Assembly: GCA_903837595.1 (NCBI GenBank)
Contig: CAILVI010000346.1
Span: 1-58,882, forward strand
Direction of reading: 5' to 3'
Source: an uncultured Thiodictyon sp.
Lineage (GTDB): Bacteria; Pseudomonadota; Gammaproteobacteria; Chromatiales; Chromatiaceae
DNA length: 58,882 nucleotides
The notes under the pieces: model-generated
Database searches by the model: none
What the model was told of the DNA's origin: nothing
Seen by the model: the letters and a program-made list of their open reading frames with translations, nothing else
Translations under genes and position numbers: made by a program
Shown here: positions 1-16,563 of the stretch, one piece after another
Layout of the letters: every line of letters starts with the position of its first letter
Position numbering within the stretch: the first letter of the stretch is position 1

Positions 1-1
1 C

Positions 2-1036
2 GGCGAGCACGGGGTTGGCGTACTCGTGCGCGACCCCGAGCACCGTTACGCGGCCGTTGCGCAGGGCCTGGGACAGGGTGTCCGTGCGGACCTGGGCGCG
101 GACGCGGATGGTGGTGAAGTCCCGGTCTTCGGGGTCGGCTGGTGCGCACTCCCCGCCGGAGGCGGGGAGTCGGTGACCCTGGTCTCGCGTGCGCGAAAGG
201 CCGCCTGTATCAGTCTCGAACGCCATCAGGGCCAGGCCGAGGGCTACGTTTTCGCGCCGCCCGCCCGGGCAGACACCGCCGCAGCCGTGCCGACACCGGC
301 GCCGACACCGGCGCCGGCGGCCATTGCGGTCGACCGGTTCCAGCTCCTCTTTCAACCCATGGTGCCGCTCGGCGGGGCGGCCAAGGAGCGTTACGAGGCG
401 ACCCCGCGCCTGACCGGTCAACAGGGCGAACGGCTCACCCCCCGCGTGTTCGCCCCGCTGGTCCGAGATGCGCAGCAGGCGATTCTGATCGATCGCTGGC
501 TACTCACTGCCGGGCTCAACGCCCTGCGGGAGCGCCATGTTGCGGGGCGGCCGGTGAACCTGTTCCTGCATCAATCCATGGTCAGCGCAGCGGATAACAC
601 CTGGGTCCAGCGGGTGCGCGATGAAATCAGCGCCCGCGACCTGATCCAATGCCGCCCGACGATCCAATGGGAATTGGCCGACATGGAGCACCGCCTCGAC
701 TTGGCCGCACAGCGCGCCGGGCAACTGGCACACCTTCGTATCCGCCTGTGTCTCAACGGCTTCACGGATAGTGACCTTGGTCAACGGGTCCTGGAGCGAT
801 TGCCGGTCGCCTATGTGCGGCTGACCCGCGAACTGATCCGCAACCTGCCACCGCAGCAGCTCCAGGACCTGGTCCGCCGCGTGCATCAGCATCGGACACT
901 GGTGATCGCCACCGGGGTCGAGGGCCCCGAGGCCATCACCCCCCTGTATTGCGCCGGGATCGACCTGGTCCAGGGCAGCTACGTCCAGCCGCCGGGCGAT
1001 ACCATGGACTTCGACTTCGCGCAGACAGGGGGGTAG
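2..1036 (+). CDS. Degenerate GGDEF-EAL protein, 5' end outside window
   Basis: The frame is open to the left edge, so the N-terminus is missing; a GTG at 26 is only an internal codon candidate. The first ~70 residues resemble the end of a GGDEF domain. After a Pro/Ala/Thr-rich linker comes an EAL-type domain that begins at FQLLFQPMVPL and ends at GSYVQPP. The EAL signature position reads YEATPRL, and the DDFG-type loop reads NGFTDSD, so residues that bind metal and substrate in active c-di-GMP phosphodiesterases are altered. From family knowledge such proteins, for example FimX, act as c-di-GMP binding or scaffold proteins rather than enzymes. That role is an inference here. The gene stops 241 bp before the end of the convergent defence operon. 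Confidence 0.8.
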   Translation, partial: GEHGVGVLVRDPEHRYAAVAQGLGQGVRADLGADADGGEVPVFGVGWCALPAGGGESVTLVSRARKAACISLERHQGQAEGYVFAPPARADTAAAVPTPAPTPAPAAIAVDRFQLLFQPMVPLGGAAKERYEATPRLTGQQGERLTPRVFAPLVRDAQQAILIDRWLLTAGLNALRERHVAGRPVNLFLHQSMVSAADNTWVQRVRDEISARDLIQCRPTIQWELADMEHRLDLAAQRAGQLAHLRIRLCLNGFTDSDLGQRVLERLPVAYVRLTRELIRNLPPQQLQDLVRRVHQHRTLVIATGVEGPEAITPLYCAGIDLVQGSYVQPPGDTMDFDFAQTGG

Positions 1037-1078
1037 CACGAGGGCCGGGGCCAGCGATTGAACGCCAATGAACGCCAC

Positions 1079-1264
1079 TCAGCGCGCTGGATCGACCGCG
1101 CAACCCACGATCGGTTCCGCCCCCGCGGGACACCAGACCAATTCCACCAAAGCGTGGATCGGGTCCTCGGGGGGCTGCCGGCCGGCATAGCCCAGATCGA
1201 TGGCGGCGGGACCGAGCAGCGCATAGCGACGCTCCACGATGGCGCGGTGCTGCGCCAAAAACAA
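1079..1264 (-). CDS. Possible small protein at the 3' end of the DISARM-like operon
   Basis: A 61-codon ORF with a TTG start lies 13 bp downstream of the NERD-helicase stop on the same strand. The product is rich in hydrophobic and acidic residues (for example IHALVELVW) and looks more protein-like than the other frames here. I do not recognise the family, and there is no clear Shine-Dalgarno sequence, so it may be chance. If real, it is the last gene of the operon. Confidence 0.3.
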   Translation of the reverse strand: MFLAQHRAIVERRYALLGPAAIDLGYAGRQPPEDPIHALVELVWCPAGAEPIVGCAVDPAR

Positions 1265-1277
1265 GAGGATCCGCTAC

Positions 1278-2864
1278 TCAGTATTCAGAGAAGACCAGCG
1301 ACAAGACCGCGCGGGCGCGACTCATGCCGACATAGTGGTTCGGACCTGGGTTGGGATCAGTCAGTGGATCGGGCAGGTCAATCACGACCACCGCCTCATT
1401 TTCGAGCCCTTTGAAGTGGGCGATCTCGGCGAAGCTGATGGCGGACGGCGGGAAGCTGCGCATCGAATACTCGTCGAGCACCGCGATCCGTGACCTTGGC
1501 CCGGCCGGCAACAAGGCGGCTGCCGAATCGAGAAACGGCCGGGGCGACAAAATGCTGATGTCGCTCGGCGGCAAACCACCGTGATCGATGAGGCGCTCGA
1601 TCTCCAGTTCGAGCGCCAATGCGGCCTGCTGTTGCGAGTGCGCCTGAACTTGCCGAATCTCGGGTCCATTGCCAGTCCCGCGCACCCCCATATCCGCACC
1701 CAGTGATGACTGGACCAGTTCCAGTATCTGTCGCGTGTTACGGCAATTGGTCTTCAACGGGACCGGAACCGCGCCATAGCTGGTAAGCAGGCCAAGGGCA
1801 TCCGGGTCAGGCGAGCCGAAGTACCCGGCTTGATTGTTGATGTCGTGAAAGAAGCACCATTGCCCCCCCTCAAGGCCACCGCGGAGCACGCCGTCCAGCC
1901 GATCCAGGGTTGCCAGGTCCAGGAGGTCCTGACCCTCATCGACGATCAAGGCGTCGAAGCGGTCGATGGCCAACCGACGGGCGGCGACGGGTGCCGCATC
2001 CGCTACGCAGACCGCAACCCCGGGGATCGCAAAGCGCGTCGCCAGCCACTGCCACAGCCAAGGCGAGCGGCAAACAATCAAGACCTTGAGCCCCGTAGCG
2101 GCCCAGCGACGGGCAAGCTCCAGTGCCAAGAAGGTCTTGCCGGTACCCGCGCCCCCGGAACAAATGACCCGCAGATTGGCCTCGGCCACATCGACCATCC
2201 GCATCTGGTCCTGCGTCAATGCGACGGTCTGGCGTTGCGCCTCTTCCACCCGCACATGCAACGGAACGGCGACATCGAACTCCGGGCGCAGAAAGTGCTT
2301 GACCGCAGCGAGCGACTCGTCGTCCGGCTCCGGGCGCTGCCGCGAGTCCTTACGCCGCCAATACGCAAATTGCCGTGTCAGCCAGCGCTCCAGGTTGCGT
2401 GAGGTCCGCGCATCCGCCAGCATCTCGGGGTCCCACTCGGCCCCGGCCAACGCCCAGTCGCAATCCGGAAAGAGCACACCATGGCCAATGCTGAACCGGG
2501 ACCAGACCGCTTCCGGAAGACCGGCCTTGAGTTTGTCCATGAGCCCATGCAGCGCCGTCTGCGCCTGCCGGAAAGGGCTTTCCTTCAGTGGGTGCATCAG
2601 CCCGACGCGGTCACAGGTCTGCCAGATGCCATCACGACAGGCGATACCCCCGCCCTTGACCTCCAACGCGAAGATCCCAGGCCGCCCGACGATCAGGAAG
2701 TCGATCTCGCCAAAGCGCTTGGCCGCATGATGGGTCAGATTGAGCGAGTGGAACGCCGTCAACCGCAGTTGGCTGTCATGGCCAAAAGCGGCCTTGAGCC
2801 GGTCGAACACCAGCAGTTCCGCCCGACTGTGGGTGTCGTGGGGTGTGGCGGGGATCATCTGCAT
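1278..2864 (-). CDS. NERD-domain nuclease fused to SF1 helicase
   Basis: The 528-residue product combines two activities. Residues ~12-130 form a NERD (nuclease-related) domain with the PD-(D/E)xK-like pattern GEID (D55) and LEVK (E68, K70). After a linker comes a UvrD/DUF2075-type ATPase: Walker A GGAGTGKT at 237-244, Walker B VDEGQDL, then HFKGLE and YVGMSRARA typical of SF1 motifs V and VI. It probably translocates on and cleaves DNA, inside the cytoplasm. It starts 5 bp after the stop of the upstream 540-residue gene, so the two are co-transcribed. In the operon it is the only recognisable nuclease, and may supply the cleavage activity that DISARM systems otherwise have in other genes (inference). 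Confidence 0.88.
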   Translation of the reverse strand: MQMIPATPHDTHSRAELLVFDRLKAAFGHDSQLRLTAFHSLNLTHHAAKRFGEIDFLIVGRPGIFALEVKGGGIACRDGIWQTCDRVGLMHPLKESPFRQAQTALHGLMDKLKAGLPEAVWSRFSIGHGVLFPDCDWALAGAEWDPEMLADARTSRNLERWLTRQFAYWRRKDSRQRPEPDDESLAAVKHFLRPEFDVAVPLHVRVEEAQRQTVALTQDQMRMVDVAEANLRVICSGGAGTGKTFLALELARRWAATGLKVLIVCRSPWLWQWLATRFAIPGVAVCVADAAPVAARRLAIDRFDALIVDEGQDLLDLATLDRLDGVLRGGLEGGQWCFFHDINNQAGYFGSPDPDALGLLTSYGAVPVPLKTNCRNTRQILELVQSSLGADMGVRGTGNGPEIRQVQAHSQQQAALALELEIERLIDHGGLPPSDISILSPRPFLDSAAALLPAGPRSRIAVLDEYSMRSFPPSAISFAEIAHFKGLENEAVVVIDLPDPLTDPNPGPNHYVGMSRARAVLSLVFSEY

Positions 2865-2869
2865 CTAGG

Positions 2870-4492
2870 CTAGCCCCGGGGCGCGAGGCTGGCACGGACT
2901 TGGGCGGCGAGTTTGGCAGGGATCTGGGCCTCGGCCAGCTGCGCCAGGAAGGCCTCCCGGTCGATCTCGTTGATCACCTTGACGTCGCCATCCAGCAGCA
3001 GTTCGGCACCGCGTCCGTCCACCCTGAACTCATAGACCCCCTTGCCGAGGCGGATGCGCGTGCGCAGGACCTGGTCCCAACCCAGGGCGCGCGCCAGCGC
3101 AAGCGCGGCTGACGGTGGCGACTTGGTCCAGTCTGCCCCGTTCGCGCCGAACAGTTCGCGTAACGGCCGGATGCGCTCCGGCACCGGTCCCAGGTCAAGA
3201 CCGGACTCGGCAATTCGCTGCGCCACGGCCGCCATGCGGTGGGCGACCGCCTCCCTCAGGCCGGGCTGACCCCGCACCTCCGGCGGCAGCCCCATCCACC
3301 CGGAACGGGCCCCAAACAGGGTCGCGGCGACCACGTAATCGAGTTCAGTCAGGAGCGGCTGGCGCAGGTCCAGCAAGTCCTGGCATTCCTGGCGCAGGAA
3401 GAACAGGAGCAAGCCACGCGAAAATGGCCGCGTGTGCCGGTTCAGCAATTCCGAAACAGTATCGCCGCCCAGCCCCAGGACGCCGCGCAAATCGCCCGCC
3501 AGACGCCCCAGGGCCGTCTGCAATTTGTCATCCGTCAGGCGTTGTCCCTGGGATGCCAGGTAATCCAAGACCGTCTGATGCAGATCCACCCGCATGGCGC
3601 CGGCGCCGGGATCGCCCTGAGACCTCCCCTTGGCATCGACCAGCGCCTGCAGTGCCTCCAAGAGCAACCGCCCCTGGAGGTCCTGACCCTCCGCCGGGCC
3701 GGCCAGGCAGGCCCAACGGCGCAGCGCCGTCAACAACGGGTCCCGCGCGACCGCGGGCGCGGCCGGCTCATCAAGTGGGTCGCACCCGGGGTCCGCCATA
3801 AAGCGGCCGGCCTCCCCCAGGGCGTCGCCGGTGTTGCCGAGTGCGAATAACAGACCCAGGGCGCCGCCGACCGCCGCCACCCCATGGGTCGGCCGGTCCC
3901 GGTCGGGTAGCAACTCACCCGCCGGTGGCAAGGCGCCCGCAGGCCGCGCCGCGAACAGCTTGGGGCTGACGCGGCGCTTGTAGGCCATGAGCGACACGTT
4001 GGCATAGTCTTCCGCCTGCGCCTCAATGGCCGTGCGCTCCTCCTTGGAGGCGAAGTGGATGCACTCAATCCAGGTCGCCGGCAGCGGGGCCGGCACGAAC
4101 AGCATCGACTCCGCACCGGTGAGCCCTGCCGGAAACGCGACCGGCACGAGGTCGCCGCCTGGCATCAGGGCGTGGACCGGCCCCTGCAACCGGCTGAGGT
4201 CAAGCGCCGCCACGACCCGCCGGAGATGGTTTTCCTCACTAACTGCCAGGTCTAGCACCGCCGCGGGAATGCGCTCGGCAAATACTGGAATCCAGCCCGG
4301 ATAGACCGATAGGACGTCCGCATAGTACTTCCCCCCGAAGCCCGCGGGCCCGGTCACCAGCCCGGCGGCGAGCATGAAGGTCAGATTGAGCTGGTTGCTG
4401 GGTAGATACCAGACCAGACGCGGCGCGGCGGCCTGCTCAAGCGCGGAGGGCGGCGCCTGCCGGGCGAAGAGATCGGCAATGGGCTCGTTCAT
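2870..4492 (-). CDS. Unknown 540-residue protein of the DISARM-like operon
   Basis: I do not recognise this family. The protein is soluble, without signal peptide or convincing membrane segments. It is rich in Leu, Ala and Arg and looks largely helical after about residue 230. The N-terminal ~200 residues look like a separate mixed alpha/beta domain containing WYLPSNQLNL and FGGKYYADVL. No Walker A, HKD (phospholipase D), methyltransferase or nuclease motif is visible. Its ATG overlaps the stop of the upstream helicase gene by four bases (ATGA), which indicates translational coupling and a stoichiometric partner. By position it could be an adaptor or a substrate-recognition subunit for the flanking helicases; that is conjecture. 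Confidence 0.85.
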   Translation of the reverse strand: MNEPIADLFARQAPPSALEQAAAPRLVWYLPSNQLNLTFMLAAGLVTGPAGFGGKYYADVLSVYPGWIPVFAERIPAAVLDLAVSEENHLRRVVAALDLSRLQGPVHALMPGGDLVPVAFPAGLTGAESMLFVPAPLPATWIECIHFASKEERTAIEAQAEDYANVSLMAYKRRVSPKLFAARPAGALPPAGELLPDRDRPTHGVAAVGGALGLLFALGNTGDALGEAGRFMADPGCDPLDEPAAPAVARDPLLTALRRWACLAGPAEGQDLQGRLLLEALQALVDAKGRSQGDPGAGAMRVDLHQTVLDYLASQGQRLTDDKLQTALGRLAGDLRGVLGLGGDTVSELLNRHTRPFSRGLLLFFLRQECQDLLDLRQPLLTELDYVVAATLFGARSGWMGLPPEVRGQPGLREAVAHRMAAVAQRIAESGLDLGPVPERIRPLRELFGANGADWTKSPPSAALALARALGWDQVLRTRIRLGKGVYEFRVDGRGAELLLDGDVKVINEIDREAFLAQLAEAQIPAKLAAQVRASLAPRG

Positions 4493-5697
4493 AATCTGCC
4501 CCAGCGGCGCAGGATGTCCGGGTCTTGGGGCAGGATCGCCTCCATCGGACAGGACTGATTGGCCTGGCGCAGCAGAATCACCTGCTCGCGGGCGCGTGAG
4601 ACCATGACATAGAAGCGGCGTCTCAGGTCATCCATCTGATGCTCTTTCTCCGGATTGCAGCGGTAACGGTGGATATCCGCGAGGATCACCCAATCGAACT
4701 CCAGGCCCTTGGTGGCTTTGTCATTGATGACGAAGATACCCCCCTGGCAGAAGCTCAGATCGCCCCGGTCCTCACCCGTGGCAAAGGTGACGATGCGCGG
4801 GGTCCCATGGTCCAGTGCCAGTGCGACCGACTGGCTGCGCAGCCGATCGAGCCACCGGTTGCGGGTCTCGTTGTCCGGGGTGATCACCCCCAAGAGCCGC
4901 GCCGGGTCCCCGTCGGCGGCCTTGAGGACGCGCCGGACAACCTCGTCAAAGTCGCACTCACACCCAGGACCATAGTCCATCAATTCCGGCGTCTTGGCGG
5001 AGGCCCGCTCGGGCGGCAGTTGGGTACACGGACTCGCCGGGTCGCCGACACAAAAGGACAGGGCCAGCCGGGCGATCGGGTAGGCATTGCGGTGGTTGTA
5101 ACTCAAGGTGATACGCTCGCGCGGACCGATGTCCAGGGCGTCGGCGATCTGCCTGACCGTGCTGTGCTGGTCCGTGATCTGCTGGTTCTGGTCCGCCACG
5201 ACGAAGACGTGCTCATAGCCCAGGTTCAATAAAGCCGCATAGAAGGTCGGCGGCATGTCCTGGCCCTCGTCGATGATCAGGAAGGGCGAGGCCGGCAACG
5301 GCAGATCCACCGCAGACCCGATGGCCTGACTGATCGCCTGCCAATCGAGGGCCCAAGCATCACCATTCCTAGTCGGACAGGGCTGCTGCAGTACCTTTTC
5401 AAAGGTCCGCTTGAACCAGGTAATCCAGGTCTGGGCATTCAGCGCCCCCCCCATCAGCTCGCGGCTGGTCGCGATGAGCAACTTGTTGTAGGCCAGAAAA
5501 CAGTAGTCCTGAGGCCAGGTCGCGCGCGTGCCGCCGGCACGGTGGTGTTGACGCGCCCGCAGCAGGGCGATCACCGACTTGCCGGTGCCGGGGCCGCCGA
5601 CGATGAGATGGCAGCCCTCCTTGGGCAGCAGCCGCACCCGTTCCTGATCCTTGCTGAGATCCTCGATATTGGGCAGGACAAAGCGGCGTGCAGCCAT
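4489..5697 (-). CDS. UvrD/Rep-type SF1 helicase
   Basis: This 402-residue ATPase has Walker A GGPGTGKS (34-41), Walker B IIDEGQD, a motif III-like VVADQNQQI, motif V-like KATKGLEFDWV and motif VI YVMVSRAREQV. It is short for a UvrD helicase (usually ~700) and lacks clear 1B/2B insertions, so it resembles the compact SF1 ATPases found in defence operons. The start lies 8 bp after the stop of the DrmB-like gene, and its end overlaps the next ORF by four bases. Together with the NERD fusion downstream, the operon encodes two SF1 motors besides the DrmA SF2 motor, which is unusual. Confidence 0.88.
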   Translation of the reverse strand: MAARRFVLPNIEDLSKDQERVRLLPKEGCHLIVGGPGTGKSVIALLRARQHHRAGGTRATWPQDYCFLAYNKLLIATSRELMGGALNAQTWITWFKRTFEKVLQQPCPTRNGDAWALDWQAISQAIGSAVDLPLPASPFLIIDEGQDMPPTFYAALLNLGYEHVFVVADQNQQITDQHSTVRQIADALDIGPRERITLSYNHRNAYPIARLALSFCVGDPASPCTQLPPERASAKTPELMDYGPGCECDFDEVVRRVLKAADGDPARLLGVITPDNETRNRWLDRLRSQSVALALDHGTPRIVTFATGEDRGDLSFCQGGIFVINDKATKGLEFDWVILADIHRYRCNPEKEHQMDDLRRRFYVMVSRAREQVILLRQANQSCPMEAILPQDPDILRRWGRL

Positions 5698-5705
5698 GGC
5701 GGGGG

Positions 5706-7607
5706 TCAGGTGCGGCCAGCCGCGAAGTGGAGCAGCGGGTGGATCTCGCCCTTGAGGTCCCCCCGCACGAAGGTCCGATCCAGCAGCACATTGCTAAATT
5801 GACAACTCGGCTCAGGCACCAGTGCGCAGGCATGGCAGGCTGCCAGGTTGAGCTGACTCGGCCCCTGGCCCTCATGCTCAGAGCACACCGGGTCCAGTGA
5901 GCACCAATGCGCATGGGCGAAGACACTGACGAGCAGCGGCAGAAAGCGCGCGGGCTCCGCCAGTTCGGCCAGCCCGCCCAAAGACCCGACGATATCCGGT
6001 ACCGCCACATAGACCAGGATGCCGGCCATCGGCTCGGCCCCCTCCGCACAATAGATGCGCTCACGGATGGAGGCGGCCGGGTAGCCGGCCTGGGTCTCCA
6101 GTTGGCGGATCACCAGGTGCGCCAGGGTGTGCAGCAGGATAAAGCGCGGCGTGAGCGGCAGGATGGGGGCGTCGGGGAAGCGCATACCAGTGCGCTCGAA
6201 ACGCCGACCCAAGGTCTCGGCGCGCGCCTTGAGCCCCGGCTGGCGCGACCAAGGCCGTAGCGCCGTTTCGGCAAGGGTGAAAAAGATCCCCTCGCCATAG
6301 AGTTCGATGGCGGGCAGCCAGTCCCCGCTGCCATCCAGGTCTGGGGGGATCACGCTGGTCCTGGGCTCCGGGGCAGTACCGCGCGGTCCCAGGGTCGGAC
6401 GCAGCCCGTCGTCGCAGCCTTGATCGAGGCGGCTGAAGCCCTCGAAGATGCGGACCTCCCGCAGTCGGGTCACGGCGACCAGCCGCTCCACCGCGGCGAG
6501 CACGGCAGTGTCCCCGGGGGCTAAGGCCAGTGCGCGCCAGGCCCGGGTCTGATCGCGCGGCACAAAGTCTTCGCCATCGCTTAGGTCTGGAATCTCCTCC
6601 ATCAGTGCCTTGTATTCCTTCGCCAGCAGTTCGCCGGGTGTCACGGTTTGACCGTAGAGCGGATAGCCCCGGTCGATCTCATCCGCGGCGTTCTTGAGTT
6701 CGTCTACCGGACAGCCGTACTGGGTGGCGAGTATCCGCAGCACGCCCTGGCGCGCTCTGCCGGACCTCTGATGCTTTAGCCGATCCTGATCCGCACGGTT
6801 AGAATAGAGCCGATCGAGCACACTGCCGCGCTGAACTCGGGACTCCGGGGGGATGACCAGGGCCGAGTGGGTTCGCGGGTAATAAAGACGGGGGTCACTC
6901 ACCTCCACGATGCTGGCCTTTTGATCGGTCGTCGTCTGCGCCCTGACTGAGGCGTGCCCCCAGGGCTGGCGCGTGGGAGGATCGAGGCGCACCGGCACTT
7001 GCCGATCGAAGGCCGACTGCGCACCGCAACGATCACAGTGCAGTCGCCAGTTGAGCCCCGTCTCCCCATCGCGCCGCCAGCGCAGATAAGGCCGATCCGA
7101 ATCCGCCCGGCAATCACGCTGACGCGCGGGATCATCGCGATGCGCCAGCAAATGCCAGGGTAGGTCGTCAAGGCCGCCCTGGGGATGGGCGAGCACCCAA
7201 CCGACCTGCTGCAACCGCGGATGTCCATCGCATTGGCAGCAGGGTGGGCGCGTCGCCGCCATGCCGGGTCGATCGTCACCTTCCCGCCACGGTTGCCAAT
7301 GCAAGAGGCCGCAGCCGGGGCAGTGCATCCAGCGCGGGAAGCGCATCGCCGGGATGCAGGTCCCATCGACGGCACCTTTGGGCAGTTCCCGCGCCAGCGG
7401 CGGCGCCCGCAGTTCGCGGTCGACCCCAAGCGTCGCGCGTAGCAGGTCCACATAGGGGATCAGGTCCCCCGCCGGCAGCTTATTGACCCGGTCGGTCCAG
7501 TGACGGATGTCCTTGACCACGAAAAGGTCGTGGTCCGCCCGCACAATAGCGCCGACCCCGCTGTATCCCAGCAGGTGCGACCAGCGTGTTGCAATCAGCC
7601 GATTCAC
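5706..7607 (-). CDS. drmB: DrmB-like DUF1998 protein
   Basis: A 633-residue protein with the layout of DrmB. The N-terminal third has Cys pairs that look like zinc sites (HCPGCG, CCQC, CDRCG). The C-terminal third is a DUF1998 region: HTLAHLVIRQLE, then IYCAEG, GILVYVAVPD and a final Cys cluster NLAACHACALVPEPSC. In DISARM, DrmB forms a complex with the DrmA helicase and is thought to help sense DNA ends or block the complex until activated (published family knowledge). The ATG overlaps the drmA stop by four bases. The gene name is by architecture; the exact DISARM subtype cannot be judged from sequence reading alone. Confidence 0.85.
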   Translation of the reverse strand: MNRLIATRWSHLLGYSGVGAIVRADHDLFVVKDIRHWTDRVNKLPAGDLIPYVDLLRATLGVDRELRAPPLARELPKGAVDGTCIPAMRFPRWMHCPGCGLLHWQPWREGDDRPGMAATRPPCCQCDGHPRLQQVGWVLAHPQGGLDDLPWHLLAHRDDPARQRDCRADSDRPYLRWRRDGETGLNWRLHCDRCGAQSAFDRQVPVRLDPPTRQPWGHASVRAQTTTDQKASIVEVSDPRLYYPRTHSALVIPPESRVQRGSVLDRLYSNRADQDRLKHQRSGRARQGVLRILATQYGCPVDELKNAADEIDRGYPLYGQTVTPGELLAKEYKALMEEIPDLSDGEDFVPRDQTRAWRALALAPGDTAVLAAVERLVAVTRLREVRIFEGFSRLDQGCDDGLRPTLGPRGTAPEPRTSVIPPDLDGSGDWLPAIELYGEGIFFTLAETALRPWSRQPGLKARAETLGRRFERTGMRFPDAPILPLTPRFILLHTLAHLVIRQLETQAGYPAASIRERIYCAEGAEPMAGILVYVAVPDIVGSLGGLAELAEPARFLPLLVSVFAHAHWCSLDPVCSEHEGQGPSQLNLAACHACALVPEPSCQFSNVLLDRTFVRGDLKGEIHPLLHFAAGRT

Positions 7608-10600
7608 AGGATCTTCACCAGCGCGGTATTCTCGACGTTGCGCATGCTGTTGACCGTGGCCCAGAGACCCGGGACCTTCGCCTCGTGACTATGGATCAAA
7701 CGCTGATCACGGCGGTCGCCGTCGCCGCCATGATACACGAGATGCTCGCGACCGTCCTGGGCGCGCCGCGCGGCATCGGCCCACTGGGCCACCAGGGCAT
7801 CAATGTGTTTCTCGGTGTCCGCGCCGCGGTCCTTGCCCGCCGCCCGCCGACAGCGCCGCTTGAGTTCCTCGACGAGGTGGCCGATGGCCGGGTCGGCCGG
7901 GTCGAAGCCCGCCGCCGACTTATTCGCCGCCAACCGCGCCTGCGTATGGCGCACGGCGATGATCAGCGCGGCATGCAGTGCGCGCAGCCGGGCTTGATAG
8001 GTATACGGGGTGACGCTGGTCGGCTCCACGTAGCGGTAAAAGGACTCGTGGTAGGCGCAGAAGGACTCGTAATGAGAGAGGCTACGGGCCTGATCGCGGT
8101 AGTAGTTGGCAATGACGATCCCGGGCACGCCGCCGCGCCCGACCCGGCTGCTCGCCTGAATATACTCCGCCGTGGTCAGTGGTTGGCCGTTGACCACCAT
8201 CACCGCCAGCCGGGCGACATCGAGCCCCACCGAGACCATATTGGTGGCAAGCACCAGGTCCAGAGCCTCGGGGTGGGTGGACGGATGCCTCAGCCGGTCG
8301 AAGGTCCGGGCATTTTCGTCGGCGGACATGTGGCTGGTGATTTGGGTCAGCCGTTGCGCCAAGCGCGCCCGGCGCTGCCAGGGGTGAGCGGGTGGGTCCA
8401 CCGGGTCGGCGCCATCGCCCCCCATCGCGCGCCGCTGCTCACTGACCTCGGCCTGATAGCGCGCCATGAAGGTCTTAATGTCCTCCAAGGCGTTACGGCT
8501 GATGCCGACCCCCTTGAGACTGCCGTGATAGACCAGCACCGTCCACCAGGCATCCAGCAGGGCAGCGGCATCGGCGCCCGCGTCGGCAAACAGCACCTCC
8601 GGCGCGACCAGCAAGGCACCGGCCAGCGGTGCCAGGCAATGGGCGCGATCCCGTGCCGGGGCCAGGTAGCCGATGTAGAGACGGCCAGGCTGTTCGCTCA
8701 AGGCGACGGTGCGGGCAAAGTAGGAATTCTCGCAGTCGAGCCCCGGCGGCGGGAACACGGCGGCGTCGCGACCATAGAGACACCTCACTTGCTCGCCCGC
8801 CATCCGGATCGTCGCGGTGGAGGCAATGTACTTTGGCTGCACCCCGCGCAGCGTCAGCACGGTTTCGATCCCGGCCTCATAGAGCCCGGCGACCGAGCCC
8901 AGGGCGCTCGCAATCAGGTGCAGTTCGTCCTGGATGATCAGTTCCGGCGGGCGATTACCGTCCCGCCCGAAGAAGGCGCCGGCCCGCTCTTCCCAGGCCA
9001 GGCGGGCGAACTTGTCGACCGTGGCCAGCAGCAGGGTCGGCGGGGACGCATAGAGCGCCGCATCGACCACGTTGCAGGGCAGAACCCCGGGGCGTTCGCG
9101 ACCAAAGTCACAGCCCGGGTTGGTGCAGTTGAAGCGGAAATACTTGGCCCCGGAGTCATAATTCTGGTCGGCGGTGAAGGGACGCGCGCACCACGGGCAA
9201 GTCTCCAGCACCAACAGACTCGGCGGACGGGCGCGGTCTTGCACCGCCTGATCGCGCGCCTCTTTGGCCTCTTCAAAGGTGTTGGGGCTGGAGGCGCCGC
9301 CGACCCACAGGCCCAAGGCGATTTCTTCACCCCCCAGTTCGGGTGTCTGGCGTCGCAGCAGTTCCAAGGCGCAGATCAGGCGGGCGGCACGGCGGAACTG
9401 ATCCTTGGTCAGGAGCCTGAGGGTGTAGCGCATGAGGACCGTGGTCCCGCCCCCCGTGGCACCGAATTTGAGTCGTCGCCAGCAGATCACGAAGGCCATC
9501 AGGCCGAGATAGGCCTCCGTCTTGCCGCCGCCGGTGGGAAACCAGATCAGGTCCAGGGTGTCCCGGTCGTCGCTGCCTTCGTTGACCGCGGACTCGATGC
9601 TGAGGAGCAGGAAGGCCAGTTGGAATGGCCGCCAGCGATAGTCTCCGGCCGGTCGTCCGGCCGCCTGGTCCGCCTGCGCCATCTGTCGCACCATCGCCTG
9701 GTTGGCGAATCCAAAGGCCCGCGCCGCCTGCGGATCCGCGCGCAACAGGCCAATGCCCTTTGTCATGCGGGCCACGGCGGTCGTCATGCGTCGGCAAATG
9801 CGCTTGGCCGCCTCCTGCCGCCTCCCGGAGAACCCGTCGACCTCCGTCTGGGTGTCCGCAACCCAGGATGCATAGCCGCAAACGAATTGCTCCAAAGCGT
9901 CACAACGCACACTAAGGTCGTCTGCAATCCCCGCCAGCCATGCAATGTCGAGGACGCCCTGGTCGCTGCCCGGGACCTCCGCGCTGATCTGGGGCACCTC
10001 GACGCGGGGTAGAAATTCGGTGCGCACGGCCACGACACGGTCGTCCTTCAGGTCCCAGTCCACGGCCGCGCCATGGCCGATGGCGTAGACCCGGTGCCGG
10101 CGGTATTGGAGCTCCAACTCCTGCTCCTCGTCGCTCAGCCGGTCGTACTGAACTCCGGGATAGGGCCCGAGCTCGCCCGCGTCGATGACGCATTCAAGCT
10201 CTGTTGCGAACAGCGCCTTCGCATTGCGCTCCGCTTCCGATCTGTTGCGATCCTGAATCTGCTGCAGGTCCTGAGTGTTACTGAGCGATGCAGTCACGAG
10301 CCAGCCATCGGCCAGCGGTCGCCAGAGCACGAACAATTCGCCTCGTTGGTCAAAGACCGGTTCCCGCCAAGTCCGGACACTGCCACCCGCGGGAGCGACG
10401 AGGTTGCGAGCCTGGGCGTCGCCGCCCAGCTGGACGTGCTGCCAGTCATCGGCGCGCCCCACCCTGGTCCGCTCGTTCAGCGGCTCGTAGCGCACCGCAC
10501 GCGGGATCAGTTGGAAGCGGATATCCTCGCCGCTGACAAAAAACGACACGCCGACCGAGGATGGGGGCACAAAACGCCGCTTGGGTTGGGTCGGCGAACT

Positions 10601-10855
10601 GCCCGTGCGTTGTGCCCCGTCCTGGTCCCCCTGCAAATCGCCCGCGTCATCAAGCTCGTCGATCTCATCGGCGGCGGGATCGAGTCCGTCCTCGCCCTTG
10701 ACGATCGGAAACAGGATACCGGTTTGATAACGCTCCAACGGCTTGATGCGATGCAGATCCGCGGCATCAGGGGCGGAGCCGGCACGCCTGTCTGGTCCAA
10801 TCAGGCAACTGTACAGCCAGCGATAAAGGTCTTCACGACGGGCGTTGTAGTCCAT
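7604..10855 (-). CDS. drmA: DrmA-like SF2 helicase
   Basis: The 1,083-residue protein carries a helicase core of DrmA type. A long N-terminal region (1-430) is followed by Walker A TGGGKTEAYLG (~441-451), a probable zinc site formed by CPWC (~553-556) and CTNPGC (~577-582), a DELH motif II at ~643-646, motif III STAT (~679-682), and a C-terminal RecA lobe with ATNMVSVGLD, IQASSRVGR and YYRDQARSLSHYE. This is the helicase-C/DUF1998-associated family that also includes the helicase half of Druantia DruE, but here the DUF1998 part is a separate gene, as in DISARM. A plausible AGGAA ribosome binding site sits before the ATG. The preceding 154-codon ORF overlaps the start by 23 bp. Role: ATP-driven motor of an anti-phage complex (inference from family). 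Confidence 0.9.
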   Translation of the reverse strand: MDYNARREDLYRWLYSCLIGPDRRAGSAPDAADLHRIKPLERYQTGILFPIVKGEDGLDPAADEIDELDDAGDLQGDQDGAQRTGSSPTQPKRRFVPPSSVGVSFFVSGEDIRFQLIPRAVRYEPLNERTRVGRADDWQHVQLGGDAQARNLVAPAGGSVRTWREPVFDQRGELFVLWRPLADGWLVTASLSNTQDLQQIQDRNRSEAERNAKALFATELECVIDAGELGPYPGVQYDRLSDEEQELELQYRRHRVYAIGHGAAVDWDLKDDRVVAVRTEFLPRVEVPQISAEVPGSDQGVLDIAWLAGIADDLSVRCDALEQFVCGYASWVADTQTEVDGFSGRRQEAAKRICRRMTTAVARMTKGIGLLRADPQAARAFGFANQAMVRQMAQADQAAGRPAGDYRWRPFQLAFLLLSIESAVNEGSDDRDTLDLIWFPTGGGKTEAYLGLMAFVICWRRLKFGATGGGTTVLMRYTLRLLTKDQFRRAARLICALELLRRQTPELGGEEIALGLWVGGASSPNTFEEAKEARDQAVQDRARPPSLLVLETCPWCARPFTADQNYDSGAKYFRFNCTNPGCDFGRERPGVLPCNVVDAALYASPPTLLLATVDKFARLAWEERAGAFFGRDGNRPPELIIQDELHLIASALGSVAGLYEAGIETVLTLRGVQPKYIASTATIRMAGEQVRCLYGRDAAVFPPPGLDCENSYFARTVALSEQPGRLYIGYLAPARDRAHCLAPLAGALLVAPEVLFADAGADAAALLDAWWTVLVYHGSLKGVGISRNALEDIKTFMARYQAEVSEQRRAMGGDGADPVDPPAHPWQRRARLAQRLTQITSHMSADENARTFDRLRHPSTHPEALDLVLATNMVSVGLDVARLAVMVVNGQPLTTAEYIQASSRVGRGGVPGIVIANYYRDQARSLSHYESFCAYHESFYRYVEPTSVTPYTYQARLRALHAALIIAVRHTQARLAANKSAAGFDPADPAIGHLVEELKRRCRRAAGKDRGADTEKHIDALVAQWADAARRAQDGREHLVYHGGDGDRRDQRLIHSHEAKVPGLWATVNSMRNVENTALVKIL

Positions 10856-11297
10856 TCCGATTCCTGATCAAACCGCAGATCCCCTTTGTACAAACTGTTG
10901 CTTGCCAACGCAAGCATTGAGCCACGGAATCGTCCTGCGCACACAGACAATCCGGCGCGGCGCAGGGCAGATCGCGCAGGGCGTGGAGCAGGACCGCCGT
11001 CTCGGGGAAGCGGTGCCTGACCCAGGGCGGCAGCACCGAGCGGGCACCCGCCACCTGGAGCCAGGCGGTCGCATAGGCCAGGACCGAGCGTAGACGCGGG
11101 TCAGTCAGGTGGCGCAGGGCCTGCGTCTGGGCCGCGGTGCGGCAGACGCGTCCATCCCAGCAGCGGCGCAGCAGGTCCAGGACCCCCGGCACATCAGGCA
11201 GGTCGATCCCGAACGCGGCGAAGACCAACGCGACCCCGGAGCCACCGGTGGCCGCGGACTCCAACCCGGTCGCCCCGCGAAAACAGAGCATGAGCAC
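10833..11297 (-). CDS. Small unknown protein, first ORF of the DISARM-like operon
   Basis: A 154-codon ORF starts with GTG or the ATG two codons later and ends 23 bp inside drmA, so it would be co-transcribed with it. The product is helical and contains Cys residues near its end (CAAPDCLC, CLRW, VCTKGIC). I do not recognise the family. Amino-acid composition looks like real coding, and the overlap with drmA supports a gene, but no homology can be claimed. It could be a regulator or an accessory subunit. The opposite strand starts the signalling operon 128 bp away, so 11298-11425 must hold both promoters; I could not pick reliable -35/-10 boxes there. Confidence 0.55.
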   Translation of the reverse strand: MLMLCFRGATGLESAATGGSGVALVFAAFGIDLPDVPGVLDLLRRCWDGRVCRTAAQTQALRHLTDPRLRSVLAYATAWLQVAGARSVLPPWVRHRFPETAVLLHALRDLPCAAPDCLCAQDDSVAQCLRWQATVCTKGICGLIRNRNGLQRPS

Positions 11298-11425
11298 TCC
11301 ATGACCACCGCCGGCCTTGCCCGCCGCGCGCGGCGGGACTATGCTTCATCGTCCAAGTATCTTGGGCGTTTGTCTGTCTTATCCGCCAGCGCACTCCCCC
11401 TGCCCGCTTACCCGGAGCCTAAACC

Positions 11426-12292
11426 ATGAGCGCCACCGTCTATCGACAGGAAAGCAAGGAATTCCAGATGAAGGTCGTCTGGCCGCCCGCCGGCCAGACC
11501 GCCGACCTGAAACCGGGGGTCACGGACAAGCAGATATTCCAGCATGTCACGAATACCATCAGCGCGGTGGTCAGGCAGCTGGCCGGCGCGAAAAAGACGG
11601 AACTCGTCTTTAACAACAATCTCTGGCGCCGCGAAGGTATCCGGTATGACACGGCCGGCGGTGATCTCAAACGAAATAACCTGACATTGGCCATCGAGGC
11701 CACCGACGAAAAGACCAAATTGAAATGCAAGCAACATCAGTTTATACCCGAACTGCTGTTCGACACACCCAAGAATTCGCCATGCCTGCCGGATGAGCAA
11801 GCGGCCAGCCACTACCAGCATCACGCAACCAAATTCAAGCTGGAAGAGGACCTGCATTTCAGCAACATCAAGTACTGCGCGTCGGGTTCTTTATTCGTCA
11901 AGGGGCGCGCCACGAAAGTCAGCACCCTGGATGACTTCAACAAGTATTTTCCGAGCCTGGCCACCCTACTCGCTCCCACTATACCCTTAAAGCCGCTGTC
12001 ACATTGGGATGAGGCAGTCTTCGACGACATGTTGACCGACTGGGGAAAGGGCGCTTTTTCCACCTGGATGCTGGTCAATCGCTGGGACTGGGGGACCAAT
12101 ACCCTGCTGGAATCCGAACTCTCATTCAAGGTGGAAAAGGCGATGGCAGATGACTGGGATTACCATCAATTGCGCCAGGCCGCGACGCTCTATCTTGAAT
12201 TACAGAGGAGCGGCATCTTTCGGGCCGCACCGCCCATCTTCTTTTACGACAATCCGGTGTCGTCAACCGACATCATCGTCGCTGGCAAATGA
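11426..12292 (+). CDS. CYTH-like domain protein (tentative)
   Basis: A 288-residue protein preceded by a GGAG ribosome binding site. Residues ~65-105 read RYDTAGGDLKRNNLTLAIE followed by TKLKCKQ. This resembles the YyDT...L...LRIR...lK pattern of CYTH/triphosphate tunnel enzymes, which hydrolyse triphosphates or polyphosphate. The N-terminal ExExK signature of CYTH proteins is not obvious, so the assignment is weak. The C-terminal half (~150-288) is unlike anything I recognise. Local GC is lower than in the neighbours. The stop overlaps the ATG of the PhnD-like gene (ATGA), so the two are translated together. A link to phosphate or phosphonate sensing is attractive because of that neighbour, but is inference. 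Confidence 0.45.
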   Translation: MSATVYRQESKEFQMKVVWPPAGQTADLKPGVTDKQIFQHVTNTISAVVRQLAGAKKTELVFNNNLWRREGIRYDTAGGDLKRNNLTLAIEATDEKTKLKCKQHQFIPELLFDTPKNSPCLPDEQAASHYQHHATKFKLEEDLHFSNIKYCASGSLFVKGRATKVSTLDDFNKYFPSLATLLAPTIPLKPLSHWDEAVFDDMLTDWGKGAFSTWMLVNRWDWGTNTLLESELSFKVEKAMADDWDYHQLRQAATLYLELQRSGIFRAAPPIFFYDNPVSSTDIIVAGK

Positions 12293-13152
12293 TGGTGAAC
12301 TGTCGTCACATCGCTGGCAGGCGCCCCCTATGGTGCCTGCTCTTGCTCGCCCTGCTCGCGGGTCGCGCACTGGCAGACGAGCCGAAGGTTCTGATCTTTT
12401 CCTCTTACGCGACCGAACGCCCGTCGGAAGAGATCCGCAAGATGGAGCCGTTCCGCAAGGCCATCGAACAAGGACTGCGCGAACGCGGACAAGACTTGCG
12501 GGTGGAGGTACGGATCTTCCCCACTTACGAGGAGGGCGTGCATGCTATCGTTCGTGGCGAAGTCGATTTTTCCCGACTTGGACCCGCCAGTTACGTGATC
12601 GCCAAACAGCGTAATCCCGATGTGAACCTACTGGCGGTCGAGGCGCATGACGGCAAGAAAGATTTCTCCGGTTTGATCGTCGTCGCCAAGGATTCGAGCA
12701 TTCAGAGCCTGGCCGATCTGCGCGGCAAGAGATTCGCATTTGGCGATCCCACCTCGACCACCGGACGTTATCTGGCCCAAGCCGAACTGGCCAAGGCCGG
12801 CATCACTGCCAAGGACCTGGCCAGCTACGAATACCTGGGTCGCCACGACAAGGTGGTCTTTGCCGTCGCCAGCGGCACCCATGATGCCGGCGCCAGCAAC
12901 GAGGGTACCGTTCAGAAATATGCCGCTGAGCGCGGTCTGCGCGAACTGGCCCGCTTCCCCAGCCCCACTCAAGCCTGGGTGGCACGCAGTGGGCTGGATA
13001 CCAACGTCGCGGCGGCCCTGCGCAGTACGCTGCTGTCCATGACGGGCCCCGCCTTGGATTATCTCGACCGCAACGGCTTCCTCCCGGCCGACGACAGCAA
13101 TTACGACGAACTGCGTAAGGGCATTGAGGCCGCCCGCGGGTTTGGTGGCTAG
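12289..13152 (+). CDS. PhnD-type periplasmic substrate-binding protein
   Basis: A 287-residue exported protein with a Sec signal peptide (basic start, LLLLALLAG core, cleavage near ALA-DEP). The mature part has the phosphate/phosphite/phosphonate-binding PhnD/SsuA2 fold: LIFSSYATERP at the front, YEEGVHAIVRGEVDFSRLGPASYVIA, LRGKRFAFGDPTSTTGRYL and GRHDKVVFAVASGTHDAGA. No ABC permease or ATPase gene is nearby. Instead the histidine kinase gene starts 2 bp later. This layout suggests the protein presents its ligand to the kinase rather than to a transporter, as known for other sensor-linked PhnD-like proteins. The ligand cannot be read from the sequence. Confidence 0.85.
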   Translation: MMVNCRHIAGRRPLWCLLLLALLAGRALADEPKVLIFSSYATERPSEEIRKMEPFRKAIEQGLRERGQDLRVEVRIFPTYEEGVHAIVRGEVDFSRLGPASYVIAKQRNPDVNLLAVEAHDGKKDFSGLIVVAKDSSIQSLADLRGKRFAFGDPTSTTGRYLAQAELAKAGITAKDLASYEYLGRHDKVVFAVASGTHDAGASNEGTVQKYAAERGLRELARFPSPTQAWVARSGLDTNVAAALRSTLLSMTGPALDYLDRNGFLPADDSNYDELRKGIEAARGFGG

Positions 13153-13154
13153 CC

Positions 13155-14990
13155 ATGTCGTTAGCCTCGAAGATCTTCTGGAACACATTACTGGTCCTCG
13201 CGATCGTGCTGGGCCTCACCGGCTGGTGGTCGGTTGAAAACGAGCGCGCGGCGCTGGAAGAGACCATCGCCAAGCATGGCAAGGCCATGGCGCAATCGTT
13301 GGCCGCGTTCAGCATTGAGGCGCTGGTGGCACAGGACTACCCGAGTCTCGATAAGGCACTGCGCACCATTGGCCACAACGCCGACAACATTGTTTATCTG
13401 CAGATCAGTCGCGGCGGGCATGTCGTTGCCACCTTCGGCCAGCGCGGTGTCGGACAGACATTCACCGCGGCGGTCATCCTCAACGAGGAGGGTCCGGAAC
13501 AACAGCAGATTGGTGAGGTGAGTGCCATACTCTCAAAACGCGATGGCAATCGCCTGATGGCAGCGCGCATCGGTCATCTATTACTCAATTCACTGATCCT
13601 GTTTATCGTACTGGCGCTGGCGCTGCACATCCTGATCCACCGTCTGGTGCTTAAGCGCGTGGCGCAACTGACCAAAGCGACCGATGGCGTGATTGCCGAA
13701 CATACCCCCGAGCGGGCCGGCACACCAGCAGCATCGGCCGGCGACGAACTCGACCTGCTGCATGCGCGTTACGCCAACCTGCTGTGGGGACTTGACTTGC
13801 GGGAACGGGAACGCACCTTCACCATGGCCAAGCTACAGGCCACCCAAGCCCTCCTCGACGATGTGGCCAACGCCCTGCCGGCAGCCCTGATCGTACTCAC
13901 CCGGGCGTTGCAGATCCAATATTGCAATCGCGCCGCTCATGAACTGGCCGGTCGCACGCTGCCATCCGGCCAGGCGCAAGCGCTGCTTGCCACCCTGCTG
14001 CCGCCGCTGGCACCACACCTGGCGCGGATTGCCGAAGTCGCTGACAATCGCCAGGCCATCGAATTGCAGCGCCAATTTTGGCCGCTCGCCAATGATCAAC
14101 GCATCGTCAATATTGCCGTCTATCCCCTATCCACCACGGCGGCGGGCGGCCTCGTCATCCGGATTGATGACGTGACCGAACGCACGCGGCTGGAAGAACT
14201 GATGATCCAGTCTGAAAAGCTCTCCTCCATCGGCGGATTGGCGGCCGGCGTGGCGCACGAAATCAACAATCCGCTGGGCGTGATGATCCAGGCGGCACAG
14301 AATATTGAACGCCGGATGTCAGATGGGATCGAGGCCAATCAGCGCACCGCCCGCGAATTGGGGACAGATATCACCACCGTGCGCGCCTACCTGGAGAAAC
14401 GCAGTATCCTGGTCTTTTTGGACGACATCAAGAACGATGGTGCGCGCGCCGCCAAGATCGTACGCAACCTGCTGGAATTCAGTCGCAAGACCGAGCCGGT
14501 CCGCGAAGAAACGGGGCTGGCTGAATTGGTAGAACGCGCCGTCGAATTGGCGTGCAAGGATTACGACCTGAAAAAGCGCTATGACTTTCGGCGGATCAAG
14601 CTGGAGGTGGACGTGGCCGCCGGCTTGCCGGTGGTACCGATGATTCGCAGCGAGGTTGAACAGGTTATCCTGAACCTGCTGAAAAATGCGGCCCAGGCCC
14701 TGTTCGAGAAATTCAACGAGGACAGCCGCGAAGAACCACAGATCAGCATTCGGGCGAGCGCCACCGACCACTATGCCGAACTGCGGGTGCAAGATAACGG
14801 ACCCGGCTTTGGCGAGGAGGCGAAACGCCGCGCCTTCGAGCCGTTCTTTACCACCAAGGCGCCCGGGGCTGGCACCGGACTGGGGCTCTGGGTCTCGTAC
14901 ATGATCATGACCGACAAGCACCACGGCCAGTTGTTGCTCGAATCCACGCCCGGTCAGGGCGCCACCTTCATCCTGCGCTTTCCGTTATGA
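13155..14990 (+). CDS. Membrane sensor histidine kinase
   Basis: A 611-residue kinase. One membrane helix lies at ~8-27 and a second at ~140-163, enclosing a ~110-residue periplasmic sensor region that could contact the PhnD-like protein. A HAMP-like linker, a PAS-like region (~230-340), a HisKA domain with GVAHEINNPLG (phospho-acceptor H368), and a HATPase_c domain (DNGPGFG, FEPFFTTK, GTGLGLWVS) follow. An unusual insert of about 45 residues sits between the H box and the conserved ILVFLDDIKNDGARAAKIVRN stretch. The stop overlaps the receiver gene (ATGA). It phosphorylates one or both of the downstream receivers. Confidence 0.92.
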   Translation: MSLASKIFWNTLLVLAIVLGLTGWWSVENERAALEETIAKHGKAMAQSLAAFSIEALVAQDYPSLDKALRTIGHNADNIVYLQISRGGHVVATFGQRGVGQTFTAAVILNEEGPEQQQIGEVSAILSKRDGNRLMAARIGHLLLNSLILFIVLALALHILIHRLVLKRVAQLTKATDGVIAEHTPERAGTPAASAGDELDLLHARYANLLWGLDLRERERTFTMAKLQATQALLDDVANALPAALIVLTRALQIQYCNRAAHELAGRTLPSGQAQALLATLLPPLAPHLARIAEVADNRQAIELQRQFWPLANDQRIVNIAVYPLSTTAAGGLVIRIDDVTERTRLEELMIQSEKLSSIGGLAAGVAHEINNPLGVMIQAAQNIERRMSDGIEANQRTARELGTDITTVRAYLEKRSILVFLDDIKNDGARAAKIVRNLLEFSRKTEPVREETGLAELVERAVELACKDYDLKKRYDFRRIKLEVDVAAGLPVVPMIRSEVEQVILNLLKNAAQALFEKFNEDSREEPQISIRASATDHYAELRVQDNGPGFGEEAKRRAFEPFFTTKAPGAGTGLGLWVSYMIMTDKHHGQLLLESTPGQGATFILRFPL

Positions 14991-15376
14991 ATACCCCTCT
15001 CCCCTGCCGGATTTTGGTCGTTGAAGACCACCCGAGCTTACGCCGCAATCTGGTCGCACTGCTGGAAGACGAAGACTTTGTGGTCAGTGAGGCCGCCAGT
15101 GGCGAGGACGCCCTGAAGCTCATCGCCGAACAGGATTTTCAGGTCGCCGTCGTGGACGTGCGCCTACCGGGCATGAACGGGATTGAATTGATCGAGCGGG
15201 CCGGCGGCGCCTACCCGCACCTGCGCTTTCTCATTCACACCGGCTCGGTCGACTATGTCCTGACGCCTGAAATCATCGCCCTGGGGATGGGTGAGGACGA
15301 CGTTTTCTACAAACCGATCTCCGATCTGGAGACTTTTTTTTCCCGTATCCGCTGCCTCTGCGGGGGTGCTGACTGA
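14987..15376 (+). CDS. Single-domain response regulator receiver
   Basis: A 129-residue CheY-like receiver without output domain. The acidic pocket is ED at 13-14, the phospho-acceptor is D57 (VVDVRLPGMNG), a Thr follows in LIHTGS, and the conserved Lys is in FYKPIS. It overlaps the kinase gene by four bases and the HD-GYP gene by one base. In such layouts it can act as a phosphate sink or a relay intermediate; which applies here is not visible. Confidence 0.92.
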   Translation: MNTPLPCRILVVEDHPSLRRNLVALLEDEDFVVSEAASGEDALKLIAEQDFQVAVVDVRLPGMNGIELIERAGGAYPHLRFLIHTGSVDYVLTPEIIALGMGEDDVFYKPISDLETFFSRIRCLCGGAD

Positions 15377-16416: not shown

Positions 16417-16424
16417 GACTCGGA

Positions 16425-16556: not shown

Positions 16557-16563
16557 CCCACCT

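Follow-up and report, generated by a model that had tools for sequence, protein, structure and literature searches.

The window, the whole stretch of 58,882 nucleotides from an uncultured Thiodictyon sp., a purple sulfur bacterium (contig CAILVI010000346.1), carries at positions 1278-10855 an operon of five minus-strand genes that encodes the DrmA and DrmB core of DISARM (defence island system associated with restriction-modification) together with three further proteins and no methylase. According to the listed open reading frames (ORFs), it is transcribed in the order DrmA, DrmB, a small superfamily 1 (SF1) helicase, a 540-amino acid (aa) protein termed X540, and a fusion of a NERD nuclease domain with an SF1 helicase (NERD-SF1), with junctions of -4, +8, -4 and +5 bp (Table 1). 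On the grounds of sequence, this cassette could be an anti-phage system of the DISARM branch that is complete, needs no methylase gene of its own and has spread horizontally, a reading that is given an even chance of being right. The underlying observation of a five-gene, methylase-free, DISARM-like operon is correct: an earlier sequence-only reading had described five packed minus-strand genes with the same assignments, and the ORF positions and profile searches agree with it, except that the operon ends at 1278 and not at 1079.

The DISARM branch of the YprA family is marked by separate DrmA and DrmB genes (PMC12458937), and here the helicase and the OB-DUF1998 part are encoded by two adjacent genes. 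DrmA matches the PADLOC DrmA model at an expectation value (E) of 3.4e-201, and its profile (alignment A4) matches the DrmA structure 7s9v in the PDB at 1.6e-194. Its score of 824.5 bits against the NCBIfam model DrmAS lies below the DISARM cut-off of 950, which is an early hint of an off-type DrmA. DrmB exceeds the cut-offs of NF038324 (328.6 bits, cut-off 240) and of the MZB zinc-binding domain (29.4 bits, cut-off 24.2). The small SF1 helicase matches PADLOC GajB (2.5e-16), scores above the cut-offs of Pfam AAA_19 and UvrD_C_2, and has PcrA as its best match among solved sequences (4.3e-17). NERD-SF1 combines a PF08378 domain (35.2 bits, cut-off 22.1) with an AAA/SF1 core and matches PADLOC RTasNERD-Hel at 3.8e-38; the only PDB match of its profile, a co-chaperone at E 0.008, was taken as chance.

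The motifs of these proteins are intact among the relatives aligned. DrmA has an invariant GGGKT and D643/E644/H646 (13/13 sequences), DrmB the cysteines C96/C99, C124/C126, C191/C194, C569/C575 and C591/C594 (12/12), the SF1 helicase the motifs GGPGTGKS, DEGQD and KGLEFD (14/14), and NERD-SF1 the residues E53, D55, E68 and K70 (14/14). Since the Walker motifs are also invariant in DrmA (13/13), SF1 (14/14) and NERD-SF1 (14/14), the set of three motors and one PD-(D/E)xK-like nuclease proposed from the sequence alone holds at motif level.

The five genes form a real unit whose content, order and strand go beyond chance. X540 was matched in 16 of the 194 genomes of the window's own family, its own genome included. 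Among the other 15 neighbourhoods, DrmA, DrmB, SF1 and X540 stand together in 12, of which 11 also have NERD-SF1 (L028 being the exception); in two more the operon is split over contigs, with its other halves in L183 and L184, and the last holds an X540 fragment only. A pattern scan with the X540 alignment over a contig collection of 84,980 species returned 82 candidate stretches, 43 of which are relatives. The phylum labels of the X540 loci placed in a DrmA tree are Pseudomonadota, Acidobacteriota, Verrucomicrobiota, Planctomycetota and Thermodesulfobacteriota, with the reservation that metagenome bins account for many of the 43 loci, whose labels thus depend on binning. Where enough DNA surrounds X540 (1.0 kb for SF1, 3.2 kb for DrmB, 6.3 kb for DrmA and 1.5 kb for NERD-SF1), SF1 is present in 41/41 loci, DrmB in 37/38, DrmA in 33/34 and NERD-SF1 in 30/36. 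The complete set is found in 25 of the 29 loci with DNA on both sides, and gene order and single strand are identical in all 25. Thiorhodococcus mannitoliphagus DSM 18266 (L039) is among the bacteria with the five genes. As an ORF was taken to start at its first ATG, GTG or TTG, measured gene gaps include over-long starts. The pairwise identities of the five proteins correlate at 0.94-0.98 across 24 complete loci, which is what co-inherited genes would be expected to show.

A further set was found on plasmid P4 of Deinococcus gobiensis, where NERD-SF1, DrmA, DrmB, SF1 and a 576-aa hypothetical protein lie in a row. This protein matches the X540 profile over nearly its full length (probability 96%, E 2.8e-9). 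Two other proteins of the row match the profiles of SF1 (E 7.8e-45) and NERD-SF1 (E 1.8e-78). The set thus occurs in a sixth phylum, here with NERD-SF1 at the operon front, and this disfavours mere operon inertia. Together with the survey around X540, it settles that the five genes co-occur in other genomes, a question raised by the sequence-only reading. X540 itself was not found by tblastn in plasmids and phages or by pattern scan in viral contigs, and the Deinococcus relative was reached via DrmA alone (84 plasmid records in the DrmA search, with four neighbourhoods read; 16 records in the NERD-SF1 search, with five read). The other strand of P4 encodes a cytosine methylase and has a DUF2357 gene, some 4 kb from the set.

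The cassette DrmAs also stand apart from those of class I DISARM. A tree of 61 DrmA-like proteins unites the 34 cassette rows with two cassette DrmAs from contig-split operons (L183 and L184, labelled 'other') in one clade, which has a Shimodaira-Hasegawa-like approximate likelihood ratio test (SH-aLRT) support of 100 and a long stem and is separate from the DrmAs of methylase-bearing class I DISARM. The nearest row is the DrmA of L109 (support 94, long branch). This was a quick tree with SH-aLRT values only, confined to DrmA-like proteins; the family neighbourhoods L021-L035, except for L024, were omitted as likely duplicates of named loci, and a row needed a DrmA ORF of 900 aa to be included. 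The spacing from DKF to QDE is 50-66 residues in class I DrmA (11/11 rows), 28-34 in cassette DrmA (33/34 rows measured) and 30-32 in four other, NERD-associated DrmAs, and the loop before motif II therefore goes with class I.

The absence of a methyltransferase, DrmC and DrmD from the operon, as claimed in the sequence-only reading, was borne out by profile searches of each protein, and PADLOC gave no match to a methylase, DrmC, DrmD or DrmE among the six ORFs of the operon region. Queries with the DrmMI (L100), DrmD and DrmC of a PADLOC-identified class I DISARM and with a DrmMII-type C5 methylase found nothing in window positions 1-20000. The DrmMI query matched the class I loci L100-L104, L167-L169 and L172-L175, as expected, and at E 1e-5 it matched no ORF in the same part of the window, the 15 family loci or the 43 other loci. 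The sole match of the methylase, DrmD and DrmC queries in these 58 cassette-related loci was a 266-aa DrmD-like ORF in L071 (72 bits), which lies at the left locus edge (1-800, minus) on the strand opposite to the cassette; a DruE-like gene occupies 13546-20202 on the other flank. In the flanks of the 43 loci, where 110 of 200 ORFs of at least 190 aa were scanned, nearest first, the 25 families matched most often in each library (out of 143 in Pfam and 95 in PADLOC) included no methylase, DrmC, DrmD or DrmE.

How DISARM spares self DNA is unsettled, since methylation sensing and DNA-structure gating have both been proposed (PMC9142583). The cassette might borrow its methylase in trans, in which case methylases encoded elsewhere would mark self DNA and DrmAB would still sense methylation. 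V1074 of the cassette DrmA, kept in 13/13 sequences, corresponds to V1296, the base-contact valine of the solved DrmAB complex and a proposed methylation sensor, and its conservation is compatible with a methylase acting in trans. In a whole-genome search at E 1e-10, some DrmMI-like match was found elsewhere in nine of the 15 cassette hosts. One of these, G137, also holds a class I DISARM. Another is the window's own genome, whose partial match (C518) shows 40% over 368 of 1359 residues and is accompanied by two weaker ones. Furthermore, a C5 methylase is encoded in the sister operon L109. However, the genome-wide searches, which covered DrmMI-like and L109-type C5 methylases, gave no DrmMI-like match in six of the 15 hosts and, without a positive control, no match to the C5 methylase in any of the 15. 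The five genes also recur across phyla without an adjacent methylase. Borrowing in trans is therefore considered unlikely.

Self-sparing by DNA structure would suit a methylase-free system. The DrmAB of Serratia DISARM is autoinhibited by a trigger loop and prefers single-stranded DNA (ssDNA) and 5' overhangs, a preference that is abolished by removal of the loop, and methylated DNA reduces its ATPase yet can still support it (PMC9142583). From the trigger-loop result, a gate is therefore possible without methylation. An acidic segment of the cassette DrmAs, at about residues 50-93, lies roughly level with the Serratia trigger loop (residues 176-232), to which it may correspond.

Another possibility is a non-immune helicase-nuclease for DNA repair or end processing, like MrfAB of the YprA family. 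The recognisable parts, DNA motors and a nuclease, would fit such a role, and the window genes adjoining the operon, which encode an EAL protein and a 288-aa unknown protein, are not known defence genes. Nevertheless, the presence of X540 in so few genomes of the family is patchy, the set has reached several phyla and a plasmid, and DISARM models recognise its DrmA and DrmB. In addition, PADLOC models for restriction of types IV and I, DruE, HmaC and AbiEi find matches in part of the ORFs that flank the 43 loci, although no background control was available for these matches. A role in repair is for these reasons held to be distinctly improbable.

X540 had no match in Pfam, NCBIfam or PADLOC (to E 0.1) or in PHROGs (to 0.01). 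Its AlphaFold2 model, based on 41 sequences (predicted local distance difference test 88.0, predicted template modelling score 0.88), predicts an N-terminal part of about 170 residues with a DarT-like ADP-ribosyltransferase fold, spanning residues 25-195 approximately, followed by a helical domain and a small C-terminal beta element. In a Foldseek search of the PDB, DarT structures take the first six places (E 1.3e-3 to 3.1e-2, prob 1.00, template modelling score by target 0.28-0.57), and the next are mostly ADP-ribosylglycohydrolases (DraG/ARH3) at E 0.14 and worse. An hhalign comparison of the N-terminal profile with a 22-member DarT profile scored 28.2 (E 0.0014, probability 17%), above 30 out of 30 column-shuffled controls (maximum 19.9). 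It took the N-terminal profile and the 22-member DarT set to reach this E; the full-length profile against four DarT gave 0.26. The only PDB match of the X540 profile, ribosomal L17 at E 0.8, was taken as chance. In some Chromatiaceae (L031, L032 and L034), X540 is 649-678 aa long, with additional low-complexity sequence that lies mostly between the N-terminal and helical domains.

On the DarT side, the hhalign alignment falls on the strand with the catalytic glutamate, which is E152 in DarT1 and E160 in DarT2 (PMC11543638). DarT mostly has Gln-Ala-Glu here, with the glutamate in 22/22 sequences, whereas the corresponding position of X540 is acidic in 0/41 and occupied by A, V, L, G, M, C or I, as judged from one ungapped local alignment; an acid stands two positions earlier in 34/41. 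The essential residues of DarT1 include E152, R52, N104 and M71, and D54 is a further catalytic residue (PMC11543638). In X540, N33, N36, Y57 and D59 are invariant (41/41) and K55 is kept in 40/41, near the would-be nicotinamide adenine dinucleotide loop according to a correspondence drawn by eye. Because of these residues, a conserved pocket may remain. The predicted DarT-like fold of X540 is new here and is read as having been kept for binding and not for the chemistry that is known. X540 would most likely be a non-catalytic, nucleic-acid-binding adaptor that couples DrmAB to the two-motor helicase-nuclease.

Alternatively, X540 could be an active ADP-ribosyltransferase of unusual chemistry that acts on ssDNA, either as an effector against phage replication intermediates or by setting a self mark that replaces methylation and is read by the other proteins. 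This stands a slim chance. The DarT matches, the DraG/ARH3 matches at weak scores and the conserved residues near the would-be loop would accord with it. A lone DarT gene, with no antitoxin annotated beside it, also lies 113 bp after a UvrD-DrmA-DrmB-NERD-SF1 operon of Azospirillum (L192). This gene, the only match among the neighbourhoods scanned with the DarT profile, is suggestive and no more, being one case in four such operons read (L107, L191, L192 and L194). Against activity speak the non-acidic residue at the catalytic position in all 41 sequences and the lack of a match to Pfam DarT (PF14487). The variant in which X540 performs or reads DNA ADP-ribosylation with non-canonical residues, an ADP-ribose mark on ssDNA separates phage from host, and the helical part reverses or reads the mark is more doubtful still.

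For the proposed anti-phage system, the following course of action is inferred. DrmA-DrmB would be held off host duplex by the acidic, trigger-loop-like segment instead of by methylation, would load on the ssDNA or 5'-overhang ends that phage DNA offers as it enters or replicates, and would then translocate. X540, a DarT-like fold without the catalytic glutamate, would hold or sense the exposed single strand and link DrmAB to the small SF1 helicase in a complex. NERD-SF1 would be the effector, with two SF1 motors and the PD-(D/E)xK nuclease degrading the unwound DNA. A methylase-free system could thereby rely on the structural gate alone. The pair of SF1 and NERD-SF1 would be functionally comparable to helicase-nucleases of the RecBCD/AddAB type. 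Support for this proposal comes from the linkage and co-divergence of the five genes, the single DrmA clade, the rearranged Deinococcus set, the invariant catalytic motifs, the defence families in the flanks, the base-contact valine and acidic segment of DrmA, and relatives of NERD-SF1 that adjoin DrmAB in other operons without a neighbouring methylase. Type III Druantia, which shares the YprA-type motor, is reported to block the circularisation and replication of phage DNA (PMC13316683).

Several observations weigh against this proposal. NERD-SF1 was not found beside X540 in six of the 36 loci with room for it (L046, L047, L048, L050, L071 and L076), and a relative of it is also present without DrmAB (L195). 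L074 is without DrmA and DrmB, the DrmA of L076 lies about 6 kb off on the opposite strand, and both DrmA in L072 and DrmB in L077 are split in two; L047, L072 and L074 are not part of alignment A7. The proposed methylation-sensing valine is kept in the cassette DrmA. The trigger-loop correspondence depends on a low-confidence alignment stretch, and acidity at this position is similar in class I, so that it is not a marker of the cassette clade. Finally, no Foldseek match of X540 falls below E 1e-3, and the hhalign values make the sequence support for a resemblance to DarT weak.

Related DrmAB operons show which parts of the cassette vary. In L109 and on the Photobacterium plasmids L185 and L188, the first three genes are as in the cassette and a 467-495 aa protein (X495) takes the position of X540, but no NERD-SF1 was found. 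L109 has a C5 methylase (PADLOC DrmMII, 1.4e-96) after DrmA-DrmB-SF1 and its unknown 495-aa protein, and the plasmid quartets have no methylase in the gene run. One reading is that DrmAB, SF1 and an unknown protein form an old quartet with an exchangeable fifth gene, either a methylase or NERD-SF1. A single family of X540 and X495 was rejected, as their comparison was non-significant (E 0.17 with one sequence, E 0.057 with a profile) and the analogy is positional only; X495 against the Deinococcus relative of X540 gave E 0.63, and two X495 members scanned had no PADLOC match. A second layout places a larger UvrD gene before DrmA, DrmB and NERD-SF1, without X540 and with no methylase in the run. 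It is located on Rhizobium (L191, L194) and Azospirillum (L192) plasmids and in the L107 genome, whose DrmA falls outside the cassette clade.

In other loci, the genes around DrmAB differ further. NERD-SF1 directly precedes DrmA-DrmB in L106, L108 and L193, with uncharacterised genes ahead of it; the leading genes of L106 (1792 aa) and L108 (906 aa) had no PADLOC match at 1e-5, and X540 did not match them. On the Streptomyces plasmid L186, a 1273-aa gene precedes DrmA-DrmB-SF1, and X540 has no match there. After X540, in place of NERD-SF1, L046 has an ATPase pair of the PDC-M31 candidate family (11972-13967) and L047 two BrxD-like genes (12467-15453), which are possibly exchanged effectors or chance neighbours. 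L040, L043 and L077 have homologous ORFs, three in all, immediately upstream of DrmA, and that of L040 is one of three among the 110 flank ORFs that match the DEDDh exonuclease family.

Within the window, the overlap of a 154-codon ORF (ORF154) with the operon front, noted in the sequence-only reading, was confirmed. ORF154 had no match in Pfam, NCBIfam and PADLOC (to E 0.1) or PHROGs (to 0.01). It was rejected as a component and is probably not part of the system because no relative was found at E 1e-3 in the 15 related neighbourhoods, 12 of which contain DrmA. Farther away, an AAA ATPase like HEC-01A/PDC-M07A/AriA overlaps a 256-aa gene without PADLOC match (45646-47503, minus), a possible second defence pair. 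A 1929-aa protein, apparently with many membrane spans by eye, is encoded at 48190-53979 (minus) over a strong AT skew at 48-54 kb. It is followed at 54099-58745 (plus) by a 1548-aa protein with a TIR-like N-terminus (PADLOC 5.7e-13), a middle part that looks CHAT/NTPase-like by eye, and a TPR C-terminus.

Table 1. Genes of the operon region in the window and the related quartets in other loci.
Feature	Position	Strand	Basis or remark
DrmA-like SF2 (YprA-branch) helicase, 1083 aa	7604..10855	-	PADLOC, NCBIfam, PDB, motifs
DrmB (OB/DUF1998-type partner), 633 aa	5706..7607	-	NF038324, MZB domain, cysteines
Small UvrD/GajB-like SF1 helicase, 402 aa	4489..5697	-	GajB, AAA_19, UvrD_C_2, motifs
X540, 540 aa, no family match	2870..4492	-	predicted fold; 43 homologous loci
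NERD nuclease domain + SF1 helicase fusion, 528 aa	1278..2864	-	PF08378, RTasNERD-Hel, motifs
ORF154, 154 codons, in front of drmA	10833..11297	-	no family match; overlaps DrmA by 23 bp
DrmA-DrmB-SF1-X495 quartets	L185 8989-16755; L188 2734-10464; L109 3566-11511		

The sequence-only reading had left the choice between a described methylase-less relative of DISARM and a new type, and this is answered in part. No description of the five-gene set was recognised in open-licence PubMed Central full text. Bell et al. (2025) define ARMADA, BRIGADE and TALON and mention many uncharacterised classes in the DISARM-like clade (PMC12458937), and a DISARM-like system adjoining McrBC was described by Bell et al. 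(2024) (PMC11090510). ARMADA comprises BrxHII-like and PglX-like genes, and its helicase carries a Vsr nuclease at the C-terminus; ARMADA II adds a GajB-like UvrD helicase, and TALON has an ARMADA-like YprA helicase, a NERD nuclease, and TPR-CSD and TBP genes (PMC12458937). The cassette shares a YprA-family motor with both, the GajB-like UvrD helicase with ARMADA II and the NERD nuclease with TALON. ARMADA was rejected, as there is no BrxHII-like or PglX-like match among the six ORFs, and so was TALON, as NERD is fused to SF1 here and TPR, cold-shock and TBP matches are absent from the same ORFs. Gabija was also rejected, since the SF1 helicase resembles GajB but no GajA match was found in the operon. 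With DarTG, the cassette would share the predicted fold of the N-terminal part of X540; it differs in that the catalytic position is non-acidic, Pfam DarT is not matched and no gene of the operon is recognised as an antitoxin.

As a DrmAB system that naturally lacks a methylase, the cassette would allow methylation sensing and structure gating to be separated experimentally, and it would bring a DarT-like fold into the DISARM world. It suggests that DrmAB is a general sensor-motor with varied effectors, such as the PLD protein DrmC, methylase modules or NERD-SF1. Tools with published definitions would report at best an incomplete DISARM, and the system is therefore probably undercounted.

The closest comparison is with DISARM itself, for which PADLOC defines types I and II (PMC9252829). 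The cassette holds the DrmA and DrmB required for type I (DrmD-DrmMI-DrmA-DrmB-DrmC) and resembles it in the adjacent, separate DrmA and DrmB genes, the helicase motifs, the base-contact valine and the acidic region before a PPSSVG-like motif. It differs in having no DrmMI, DrmD or DrmC and in adding SF1, X540 and NERD-SF1. With type II (DrmE-DrmA-DrmB-DrmC-DrmMII), it has the DrmAB core without DrmD in common, but its ORFs have no PADLOC match to DrmC, DrmE or DrmMII, and X540 was rejected as a DrmE on the same ground. As the cassette fits neither the type I nor the type II definition, it is therefore named a methylase-free system of the DISARM branch.

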